Origin: Sinorhizobium medicae
Lineage (GTDB): Bacteria; Pseudomonadota; Alphaproteobacteria; Rhizobiales; Rhizobiaceae
Assembly (NCBI RefSeq): GCF_007827695.1
Contig: NZ_VITA01000003.1
Location: 62,001 to 126,000 of the forward strand
Direction of reading: 5' to 3'
Length of the DNA stretch: 64,000 nucleotides
Within the stretch, counting starts at the first letter, position 1. Every line of letters starts with the position of its first letter. The notes under the pieces are model-generated. The model was not told where the DNA came from. It ran no database searches and saw nothing but the letters and a program-made list of their open reading frames with translations. The position numbers and the translations under genes were made by a program. Of this stretch, positions 11,188 through 19,538 are shown piece after piece.

Positions 11188-12501
11188 TCAAGCGAGAGAC
11201 GCGCGACGCGTCTCGGTGTCGATGAGAAAGGCGGCCAGGGCTGCCGCGAGCAGGAAGGCCGAGAAAATACCGACTGCAAGAGTGAAGCTCTGCGCCACGA
11301 CGAGCCCCATCAGCGAGGGCGCGAGAAGACCCCCGAGCCGCGCCATGCCGCCCGCCGCGCCCATGCCCGTTGCCCGCGATGCGGTAGGATAGAGTTCCGG
11401 CGTATAGGCATAAAGCGCACCCCAGGTGCCAAGCAGGGCGAAGCTCATGGTCAGGAGAGAGGCACCGATCAGCGTGCCCGATTCGGCCGCCACAAAGAGC
11501 AGGCAGCCAAGCGCCGACAGCAGGCAGAAGCCGATCAGCGTCGGCCGGCGGCCCCACTTCTCCACGCCATAGGCCGCGAGGGCATAGCCGGGTATCTGCG
11601 CCAAGGCCAGGAAGACGAGGAAGCCATAGCCGCGAACGAACCCGAAGCCCTCGCCCGCCAGTCGCGGAGGCATCCAGGTAAAAACGCCGTAATAGGATAC
11701 CGAGACGAGGAACCAGATCGCCAGGATCAACAGGCTGCGCCTGCGCATATCCGCGGAGAAGATGCCTTCGCTCGCAACCGGCGGCGGCGAAACCAGCGAC
11801 ACGTCAGCGCCCAGTTTACTCTTGCCGTTTACGAGGAGGATACGCTCGACAATGGTCTTGGCTTCATGGGCTTTTCCGCGGCGCAGGAGATAGAGCGGCG
11901 ATTCCGGCACGAGAAAACGCAGGCCGACTCCGATCAGCGCCGGGATCGCCGTCACGGCAAAGATGTAGCGCCAGGCATCGGCGACACCGGCAAGACTGGC
12001 AGCCCATGCGGCGAGCGCGACGACGAGCGTGCCGACGGCCCAGAATCCCTCCAGCATGACGAGCCAACGGCCGCGATTGCGGGCCGGCAAGAACTCCGCC
12101 ATCATCGCGTAGTCGACCGGCAATGTACCGCCGACTGCAGCGCCTGTCAGAAAGCGCAGCAGAAGCAAGAAGGCAAAATTCGGCGCAAAAACCGAAAGCA
12201 GGCCGAAGAGGGCATCCAGGGAGACGGTGACGATCAGGACATGACGACGGCCGATCCGGTCGGCGAGCTTGCCGAAGGAGACGGCGCCAAGCAGCATGCC
12301 AAGGAAGAACAGGGTACCGGTCTGCAGCGCCTGCGGGATCGTAAGACCGAAAGTTGCGGCGATCGATGCAGCGGTGAAGCCGACCGCCAGCACCTGCATC
12401 GCATCGGCCGCCCACACCAGCCCGAATATGGCCATGAGCCGGCGCTGATACGCGCCTGTCCCGGCGCGGTCGAGCGCATCGTCCACTGTGATCGTCGTCA
12501 T
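11188..12501 (-). CDS. MFS transporter, aromatic-acid/SV2-like (AAHS-type) family
   Basis: A 437-residue, twelve-helix major facilitator protein. Loop 2-3 has the MFS signature GKLADRIGRRHVLI, and the second half repeats it as GVEKWGRRPTLIG. The long central loop (about 200-245) is typical of acid and niacin porters. The frame is open two codons further to a GTG, but ATG at 12501 has GGAGAAGG at good spacing. It is the last gene of the unit with the CoA ligase, mutase and dgdA, 122 bases after the ligase, so it probably imports the organic acid that the ligase activates. Its substrate is not shown by sequence. Confidence 0.88.
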   Translation of the reverse strand: MTTITVDDALDRAGTGAYQRRLMAIFGLVWAADAMQVLAVGFTAASIAATFGLTIPQALQTGTLFFLGMLLGAVSFGKLADRIGRRHVLIVTVSLDALFGLLSVFAPNFAFLLLLRFLTGAAVGGTLPVDYAMMAEFLPARNRGRWLVMLEGFWAVGTLVVALAAWAASLAGVADAWRYIFAVTAIPALIGVGLRFLVPESPLYLLRRGKAHEAKTIVERILLVNGKSKLGADVSLVSPPPVASEGIFSADMRRRSLLILAIWFLVSVSYYGVFTWMPPRLAGEGFGFVRGYGFLVFLALAQIPGYALAAYGVEKWGRRPTLIGFCLLSALGCLLFVAAESGTLIGASLLTMSFALLGTWGALYAYTPELYPTASRATGMGAAGGMARLGGLLAPSLMGLVVAQSFTLAVGIFSAFLLAAALAAFLIDTETRRASLA

Positions 12502-12623
12502 CCGCACCTTCTCCCGATGGCGATTCGCCCGCTCGATGCCACTGCGTCATGCTACATCAAGGCAGACATGGCGGAAGCGGGAAACGAGCTCGACCGGCCA
12601 GACGCCGGTGCATCCGCATTTGA

Positions 12624-18170: not shown

Positions 18171-18182
18171 CGATCCCTCTTT

Positions 18183-19538
18183 CTATTCTGCCGCAACGTA
18201 CTGACGGCTTGCGCCGAGCGGCAATGCCGCTTCGATGGCCAATGATGCTTCGATGGATTGCGTGATGATGCGCAGGCCAAGCTCGATCTCCTCCTCGGAA
18301 ATCGTCAATGGCGGCGCGATGCGGAAGACGCCGCCCATACCGGGAAGCTTGACGATATTCATACTGAGCCCACGGCGGAAAGCTTCGGCGGCAATCCGGC
18401 TGCCAAGCTCATGATCGGCACTTCTGCTCTCACCCGGTTTCACGATTTCGACGCCGAGCATAAGGCCGCGACCGCGTACGTCGCCGACGCAGTCGAATCT
18501 CTGCTTCAACTGCGACAGGCCATCGAAGAGCTCGCCGCCGATATGACGGGCGCGCTCGACAAGCCCTTCCTCGGCGACGACGTCGAGCACGGCAAGGCCC
18601 ACCGCGGCCGGCAGGGGATCGGAGACATGCGTGGTGTAGAAAAGGAAGCCCTTCTCATGCGCCGCCTCCTCGATCTCCGTCGTTGTCATGACGGCGGAGA
18701 GTGGCAGGCCGGCGCCGATCGTTTTCGAGAGCGTCAGAATATCGGGCGTAACGCCGTCGCGCTGGAACGCGAACATGGTTCCAGTCCGGCCGATTCCGGT
18801 TTGCGCCTCGTCCAGAATGAGCAGCATTCCGCGCTCGCGGCATTTTTCCATGAGCGCTGCGAGATAGCCCTGCGGCAGTTCGAGCAATCCGCCGCTCGAC
18901 AGGATGGGCTCGGCGATGAAGGCGGCGAGGCTGCCGGTCGACTGACTGTCGATCAGCGCGAAAGCATCGTCCAGCTCCGTCCTCCAGTCCAGGCTCCCGT
19001 CACCATGCCGAAAACGCGGGCGGAATGTGTTGGGTGCCGGAATGGTCAGAGAACCGACCATGGCCGGGCCATAACCCTTGCGGCCGGCGCTGTATGTTGC
19101 CGAACTCGCCGCGCCGGTCATGCCGTGCCAGCTCTTTGAGAATGCGACGATTTCATGCCTGCCGGTGACGAGCTTGGCCATTCGGATGGCCGCCTCGTTG
19201 GATTCCGCCCCGGTCGACAACAGCATGACCCTGTCGAGACCGGGTGCCAGCGCCGCCAGCCGCTCGGCGAGATCGACGACCGGTCGCGACAGCATTCCGC
19301 TGAAAAGATGGGCGACCTTTTCCATCTGCCGCTGAACGGTCGCGACGATCCGGGGATGGGAATGGCCGACCAGTGCACTCATCTGGCCCGAGGTGAAGTC
19401 GAGTATCGGCCGGTCGTCGGCATCAAAAACGAAAGAGCCCCTGGCCCGCTCGATGATCGCGGGGTCGAAGCTTCCGCCATAGCGGATCAGATGCCTGCCC
19501 GCGGCCGCCCAGAAGGCGGGATCCTGATTGTTCGACAT
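18183..19538 (-). CDS. dgdA: 2,2-dialkylglycine decarboxylase (class III aminotransferase fold)
   Basis: A 451-residue PLP enzyme very like Burkholderia DgdA. That enzyme decarboxylates 2-aminoisobutyrate or isovaline, giving CO2 and a ketone, then aminates pyruvate. Key residues agree, even in number: Gln52 in TSGQMSA, a Trp in KSWHGMTGA (137 here), Asp243 in ILDEAQTG and the PLP lysine Lys272 in TLSKTIGAG. The C-terminus is about 18 residues longer than in Burkholderia. The open frame extends far upstream, but ATG at 19538 has GGAGG six bases before it. It heads the mutase unit and is divergent from a DgdR-like LysR gene. Confidence 0.92.

Follow-up and report, generated by a model that had tools for sequence, protein, structure and literature searches.

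A conserved operon of Sinorhizobium medicae that joins 2,2-dialkylglycine decarboxylase to a B12-dependent acyl-CoA mutase and may degrade alpha,alpha-dialkyl amino acids

We analysed a stretch of 64,000 nucleotides from Sinorhizobium medicae (contig NZ_VITA01000003.1, positions 62,001 to 126,000; hereafter the window), part of a genome of 6.5 Mb in 68 contigs, for a group of seven genes that all lie on the minus strand. The first, dgdA (18183..19538), encodes a class III pyridoxal phosphate enzyme of 451 aa assigned as 2,2-dialkylglycine decarboxylase. It is followed by the genes for the B12-binding small subunit of an acyl-CoA mutase (17709..18170; 153 aa; TIGR00640, 141.6 bits, above cut-off; PF02310), for MeaB, the G-protein chaperone of the mutase (16711..17712; 333 aa; TIGR00750, 304.2 bits, above cut-off; PF03308), and for the large mutase subunit, which is of the 2-hydroxyisobutyryl-CoA mutase (HCM) type (15023..16723; 566 aa). 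Then come genes for a protein of the enoyl-CoA hydratase (ECH)/crotonase family (14261..15010; 249 aa), proposed here to be a 3-aminoacyl-CoA ammonia lyase, for an AMP-forming, possibly CaiC-like acyl-CoA ligase with the domains AMP-binding and AMP-binding_C (12624..14258), a candidate dialkylglycine-CoA ligase, and for an MFS transporter named from the family scan (11188..12501, or from a GTG start at 12507). From dgdA to the transporter gene the gaps are 12, -4, -13, 12, 2 and 122 bases. An earlier note on this DNA had described the seven genes as one unit; its coordinates and gaps were reproduced, and family scans together with PDB matches upheld its family assignments for all seven.

Conservation of the dgdA-mutase neighbourhood was checked across genomes. 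Genome contigs were scanned for close relatives of the mutase by means of six short peptides; the best 80 of 82 were kept and gave 79 distinct loci. Neighbouring genes were named by similarity and a simple open reading frame script, and were counted within 9 kb. Loci L107-L109, although retrieved, did not enter the analysis. The 31 loci whose large subunit shares 75% identity or more with that of the window are termed close loci. Thirty of them were found to have the strict order dgdA-small subunit-meaB-large subunit-ech-ligase with a divergent lysR gene, the exception being locus L027, and the joining of DgdA to an HCM-type mutase described in the earlier note is thus a conserved one. Near the operon we counted livK, an amino-acid binding protein gene, at 28 close loci, araC at 15, sdr at 11, a thiolase gene at 11 and the MFS gene at one; these counts are lower bounds because some contigs end nearby. 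The six-gene core of the unit as first drawn therefore stands, while the transporter gene was rejected as a core part and is a local addition; the divergent lysR and the other neighbours had been missed.

None of the remaining 48 scan loci, three of which (L048, L075 and L084) were not typed by the script, had dgdA at 45% identity or more, and an ECH of at least 40% identity was seen at two of them (L035 and L074). In the plasmid collection, dgdA and the mutase occur at 90% identity or more in one and the same set of 20 records. Of 297 genomes drawn evenly from the order, the host genome among them, 28 contained dgdA and four the close mutase (at least 88%), and in all four dgdA adjoins the mutase; the other 24 dgdA-bearing genomes gave no mutase match at E <= 1e-180. 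Together with the locus counts this means that a close mutase implies dgdA, L027 apart, while dgdA does not imply the mutase. One contig of a metagenome-assembled genome (L022) carries the entire operon twice as an inverted pair, possibly an artefact of the assembly.

Amino acids with a quaternary alpha-carbon are not deaminated by ordinary transaminases. The best PDB matches of DgdA were chains of dialkylglycine decarboxylase (DGD; 658 bits for 1d7r), the best other chain reaching 226 bits; the query used in the PDB search and the family scans was 452 aa long, one codon longer at the start. The protein is identical to the DGD of 1d7r and 1dka, which we take to come from Burkholderia cepacia, at 303 of 431 aligned residues (70.3%), and to the PDB DGD sequence at all 21 active-site positions checked. 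These are the positions that we assume to form the active site; at 395, where we had presumed Met, both proteins have Ile. On its sequence we regard the window protein as a true 2,2-dialkylglycine decarboxylase. The divergent lysR is a further likeness, since dgdR is, we presume, placed in the same way beside the B. cepacia gene. The window dgdA differs in heading a B12-mutase operon, a mutase that most dgdA-bearing genomes of the order sample lack. Copies of DgdA that are 98.7-100% identical were found in 13 S. medicae plasmid records of 1.0-1.6 Mb.

The large mutase subunit was closest in PDB to HCM (4r3u, 740 bits), methylmalonyl-CoA mutases reaching 476 bits at most, and 315 of 554 residues (56.9%) were identical to HCM. 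As in HcmAB with MeaH of Aquincola tertiaricarbonis, from which 4r3u derives, the large and small subunits are separate and come with a MeaB-type G-protein chaperone. At the HCM positions that we take to be Ile90, Asp117 and Gln208, and whose spacing agrees with the alignment, the window protein has V93, D120 and Q211. The Asp and Gln are kept, while Val replaces Ile90 in the window and, wherever the residue could be read, at the close loci. The mutase tree omitted the L034 row, which has an incomplete mutase reading frame, and rows shorter than 400 residues. In this tree all Val90 mutases except a Mycobacterium copy fall into a single clade of 34 rows (SH-aLRT 99, by a quick method). Three of these rows are of the L035 kind; of the other 31, 30 are of the dgdA kind and one is L027, which is nested among them (support 86). 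Ile is present in 56 rows of the tree set. Forty-five positions differ fixedly between 29 dgdA-type and 40 Ile-type rows, some of them presumably in motifs near the substrate. Among the papers listed in our literature search none mentions Val90. The host genome holds one further large-subunit match, at 43% identity. In the S. medicae plasmid records H39 and H47-H50 the large-subunit match starts at residue 24 or 71, with 99% identity, and the mutase frame may therefore be broken near its start in those strains.

Ile90-type mutases were collected at 56 loci, 40 from the scan and 16 from draws of the class, order and phylum. A ligase of the HCL type, the PaaK-type 2-hydroxyisobutyrate-CoA ligase, was found at 45% identity or more at 50 of these; of those without it (L046, L061, L066, L071, L091 and L092) five are short or cut by a contig end. 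None of the 56 has the operon-type ECH (at least 40%) or dgdA (at least 45%). This matches the HCL-mutase-meaH operon layout described in the available text of PMC7176365. HCL was found at none of the 31 close loci, which thus use another ligase. The window operon likewise lacks HCL, which was not among the best 60 of the 204 PDB matches of its ligase. The nearest model of that ligase is PRK06155 (an acyl-CoA ligase; 483 bits, under cut-off), and the CaiC model gave 263.8 bits, under its cut-off of 651. Compared to HcmAB and MeaH, the window system therefore differs in its 56.9% identity, in Val for Ile90, in the lack of HCL and in the presence of ECH, dgdA, lysR and livK.

Those operon ligases that cover the motif read FHTDAQ. 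The Asp is common to E. coli CaiC and is Asn in the ligase of L050; among 27 ligase relatives outside the operon it is D in two, and N, A, G or S in the others. The idea that it corresponds to the alpha-amino-binding Asp of nonribosomal peptide synthetases was not used: a first alignment placed Asp on Asp, and a second was shifted by one.

The 2-hydroxyacyl-CoA lyase (HACL) was found at 40% identity or more at four of the 56 Ile90-type loci (L050, L061, L073 and L105) and, among the 31 close loci, at L027 only. These counts bear on an arrangement of decarboxylase and mutase in series, in which acetone from DgdA and formyl-CoA would give 2-hydroxyisobutyryl-CoA for the mutase to turn into 3-hydroxybutyryl-CoA. 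According to PMC7176365 (available text), D. biacutus uses lyase and mutase together, and L027 links a close mutase to HACL. However, no HACL orthologue was found in the host genome (best match 30%), so that acetone is not fed back to the mutase by that way, and the ECH and the ligase would stand idle. A gene for the gamma subunit of acetone carboxylase (PF08882, 155.9 bits, above the Pfam cut-off) is present in the host genome as well, so that acetone could in principle be used. We consider a series arrangement very improbable.

The window ECH has both crotonase glutamates (E114 and E134), and F140 is followed by V141 in a loop that reads FFPE...FVTGG. The BvaB1 protein of Pseudomonas SBV1 releases ammonia from beta-valinyl-CoA and has E113, E133 and F139, the loop proline being missing (PMC4619459, available text). 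BvaB1 (GenBank KM595283) was compared through these published positions and not by its sequence; both glutamates and the Phe of the window protein stand one number after those of BvaB1, and the Phe is followed by Val, not Pro. Because the spacing of the glutamates is general in the crotonase family, the information lies in the Phe and in the absence of the proline. The best PDB match was the 3-hydroxypropionyl-CoA dehydratase 5zai, presumably from M. sedula. The M. sedula dehydratase is described as a relative of BvaB1 (PMC4619459).

Outside the operon we found 14 strong ECH relatives, of which 13 genome loci were examined, and six plasmid relatives, of which three were examined. A PaaK-type ligase gene adjoins the ECH gene at 12 of the 13 genome loci (43-50% identity; the exception is L183) and at all three plasmid loci (41-44%), that is at 15 of 16 loci; in the window operon the ECH gene is not beside a ligase of this type. 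The layout with a PaaK-type ligase is that of bvaA-bvaB1, a proven pair of beta-aminoacyl-CoA ligase and ammonia lyase (PMC4619459). In our reading the group at 41-50% identity probably belongs to the BvaB1 family. Genes for a HAD hydrolase, a binding protein annotated for branched-chain amino acids and a sigma-54 regulator follow the ligase-ECH pair in Caballeronia and Variovorax. The Caballeronia regulator matches 4qhs with 240 bits, and the gene that follows bvaA-bvaB1 in SBV1 encodes a regulator with 4QHS as its listed structure (PMC4619459). A Rhodobacteraceae plasmid locus has the pair without these followers. Pairs of PaaK-type ligase and ECH, with no mutase or dgdA nearby, were seen in Alpha- and Betaproteobacteria (L172-L182, L184, L188-L190) and may be a general module of beta-amino-acid degradation. 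Fifteen weaker ECH relatives outside the operon are at 32-39% identity. One of them, at L185 (8230-10638; 36%), adjoins a ligase that is not PaaK-type but is related to the operon ligase at 40% identity, and there is no mutase; the ech-ligase order of the operon thus exists on its own too.

We propose, with a probability of about one half, that the genes form a catabolic operon for small alpha,alpha-dialkylglycines, in which a ligase, an aminoacyl-CoA mutase, an ammonia lyase and beta-oxidation act in turn and DgdA provides a parallel exit. In most carriers 2-aminoisobutyrate or isovaline would be taken up by way of the LivK-type amino-acid binding protein, and the CoA ligase would activate the dialkyl amino acid to its aminoacyl-CoA. 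The adenosylcobalamin-dependent mutase, composed of large and small subunit and served by MeaB, would then shift the CoA-thioester group and convert a 2-amino-2-methylacyl-CoA to a 3-aminoacyl-CoA, for example 2-aminoisobutyryl-CoA to 3-aminobutyryl-CoA. The ECH-family protein would eliminate ammonia to leave an enoyl-CoA, and hydration, an SDR dehydrogenase (25782..26546, minus strand), which we take from its likeness to be a probable 3-hydroxyacyl-CoA dehydrogenase, and an acetyl-CoA C-acetyltransferase-type thiolase (24571..25773, minus strand) would complete beta-oxidation. In the second exit DgdA would carry out a decarboxylation-dependent transamination to acetone or butanone, CO2 and L-alanine, the nitrogen leaving as alanine beside the ketone. 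The two routes might be kept for different enantiomers, or might serve carbon need and nitrogen need, respectively.

An aminoacyl-CoA mutase is proposed because an amino-acid enzyme stands first in the operon, an amino-acid binding protein gene lies near it in most carriers, the ligase is not of the hydroxy-acid type and the ECH resembles an ammonia lyase. A hydroxy-acid mutase route makes 3-hydroxybutyryl-CoA directly and needs no ECH, whereas the 3-aminobutyryl-CoA made by an amino-acid mutase route calls for an ammonia lyase. The canonical HCM pathway is accordingly rejected or at least weakened by the lack of HCL, by Val90 and by the extra ECH. The general suggestion of a dedicated system for alpha,alpha-dialkyl compounds survives as the best reading, while the substrate named for the mutase arm in the earlier note, 2-hydroxyisobutyryl-CoA, is disfavoured by the absence of HCL from the close loci, by the Val at Ile90 and by the BvaB1-type ECH at 30 of 31; L027 favours that earlier version. 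That the operon contains the first B12-dependent mutase with an alpha-aminoacyl-CoA as its substrate (2-aminoisobutyryl- or isovalyl-CoA to 3-aminoacyl-CoA), followed by a crotonase-fold ammonia lyase, has in our judgement just short of an even chance.

Several observations speak against the proposed pathway, L027 (Peristeroidobacter) first among them. Its large subunit is 84% identical to that of the window, has the same Val, Asp and Gln, and is nested in the Val90 clade. The order there is small subunit-meaB-large subunit, with HBD downstream and HACL on the other strand (453 bits to 7pt1); in the 21.7 kb of this locus no ECH, dgdA, livK or operon ligase was found, the ligase present being at 28% identity. 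This context fits 2-hydroxyisobutyryl-CoA, and the Val90 type of mutase may therefore take that substrate, alone or additionally. In favour of the proposal, Val90 and the operon ECH mark a single mutase clade, within which L027 is without the ECH. The residues of this clade and the ECH occur at L035, L074 and L100 too, but with an HCL-type ligase and without dgdA; the ligase type is confirmed by the 677 bits of the L035 ligase to the 2-hydroxyisobutyryl-CoA synthetase 6hdw. At L050 a distant Val-type mutase (46%) is accompanied by a ligase 39% identical to that of the window and by an SDR, but by no such ECH, and a complete Ile-type cluster lies next to it; this setting points to a hydroxy acid at that locus. 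Furthermore, the crotonase glutamates also fit a plain hydratase, and two enzymes for one substrate in a single operon are unusual. The livK gene of the window itself is broken, a remnant of 48 codons and a stop being left (24193..24339, minus strand). It is because of L027, of L035, L074 and L100, and of L050 that our confidence is held at the level given.

The same loci favour an alternative in which two parallel arms share one regulator. In one arm DgdA would turn dialkyl amino acids into ketones; in the other, the ligase, the mutase, the SDR and the thiolase would carry the corresponding 2-hydroxy acids (2-hydroxyisobutyrate and 2-hydroxy-2-methylbutyrate) through to acetyl-CoA, with the ECH as an accessory hydratase. 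The large subunit being nearest to HCM and the retained Asp117 agree with this, as do the HACL and HBD beside the L027 mutase, the HCL at L035, L074 and L100 and the similar ligase and SDR beside the Val-type mutase of L050. However, no close locus has HCL, the ECH is kept at 30 of 31 although 3-hydroxybutyryl-CoA requires no hydratase, the ECH family is elsewhere found with PaaK-type ligases, and an amino-acid binding protein gene lies near 28 of the 31. We regard parallel arms as possible, yet clearly less probable than the amino-acid pathway.

At L035, L074 and L100 the HCL-mutase-ECH-SDR clusters adjoin a P450-like gene, named by eye, and reductase genes. In L050 (Mycobacterium sp. NAZ190054, 1480-9920) the clusters stand in tandem, a Val-type mutase, CaiC-like ligase and SDR being followed by an Ile-type HCL cluster. 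Class III aminotransferase genes near the mutase at Rokubacteria loci were considered and set aside, as their products are only 31-32% identical to DgdA.

The operon might also run in reverse, starting from 3-aminobutyrate. Once activated, this would be isomerised to a dialkylglycine-CoA, and DgdA would destroy the amino acid set free by hydrolysis. The HCM reaction is termed reversible in the available text of PMC7176365, and dgdA stands first in the operon. Such a detour would be pointless given an ammonia lyase, and the conserved unit has no thioesterase gene; this direction seems to us most unlikely.

The divergent LysR-type regulator gene kept at 30 of the 31 close loci lies at 19635..20492 on the plus strand of the window. 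The region between it and dgdA (19539..19634) is conserved over 31 sequences, the window included, with an inverted pair ATATCA...ATAT and a box TATCAA.TTTAC; in full, the conserved boxes of the alignment read CATATCA..T....T.ATATC and TATCAA.TTTAC. This fits a single shared control region. An AraC-type regulator gene, named by eye, is found at 26643..27641 on the plus strand. The best PDB match of LivK was the amino-acid binding protein 3ip5 (545 bits), which we take to be Agrobacterium Atu2422, binding alanine, proline and gamma-aminobutyrate. A binding protein of 72% identity is encoded elsewhere in the host genome, and as a guess the local MFS gene might substitute for livK.

A block with IclR, CoA transferase and thiolase genes lies between lysR and the livK remnant (20645-24339), while in S. 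meliloti 4H41 (L009) livK adjoins lysR; the block probably came by rearrangement. Its CoA transferase and thiolase genes (21525-24126), presumably pca-like, were rejected as members of the unit, as they follow the IclR-like gene and separate the livK remnant from lysR. In three Shinella loci (L010, L012 and L072, at about 1.1-3.6 kb) a gene of the methylmalonyl-CoA mutase type (44-45%, with Tyr/Ala/Arg) lies upstream of araC, livK and the operon. It would suit propionyl-CoA from a C5 substrate, e.g., isovaline.

Among known systems, the beta-valine pathway BvaA/BvaB1/BvaB2 of Pseudomonas SBV1 shares with our proposal a CoA ligase and an ECH-family ammonia lyase with Glu, Glu and Phe, but starts from a beta-amino acid, with a PaaK-type ligase and no mutase (PMC4619459). 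The monooxygenase AibH1H2/AibG/AibF of Rhodococcus wratislaviensis opens another route of 2-aminoisobutyrate breakdown, by hydroxylation, with no CoA or B12 step seen in the available text of PMC7782822; according to that text DGD had been the sole enzyme then known on 2-aminoisobutyrate, to which the monooxygenase was added. The actinobacterial 2-hydroxyacyl-CoA lyase route (PMC7176365, available text) handles the same carbon skeleton as a CoA ester, but employs a thiamine lyase that is absent from the window operon and, as an orthologue, from the genome. In the literature searched, outside which most subscription journals lie, no paper was found with both 'dialkylglycine decarboxylase' and 'hydroxyisobutyryl-CoA mutase', in line with the earlier statement that no described pathway has both in one operon; nor was any mention found there of 2-aminoisobutyryl-CoA, aminoisobutyryl-CoA mutase or aminoacyl-CoA mutase. 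A search combining 2-aminoisobutyrate, mutase and decarboxylase returned only unrelated papers.

Altogether, a soil and root-nodule bacterium and its relatives have in common a compact gene set that probably degrades alpha,alpha-dialkyl amino acids. If parallel arms were the true arrangement, this would still be a conserved operon, apparently unreported in the literature searched, in which dialkylglycine decarboxylation is linked with a tertiary-acid mutase. If the proposed pathway is true, it would bring nitrogen substrates into the range of the methylmalonyl-CoA mutase family and would add, beside decarboxylation and hydroxylation, a third and carbon-conserving breakdown of alpha,alpha-dialkyl amino acids, for which a Val90/Asp117 mutase together with the operon ECH would be a genome marker.

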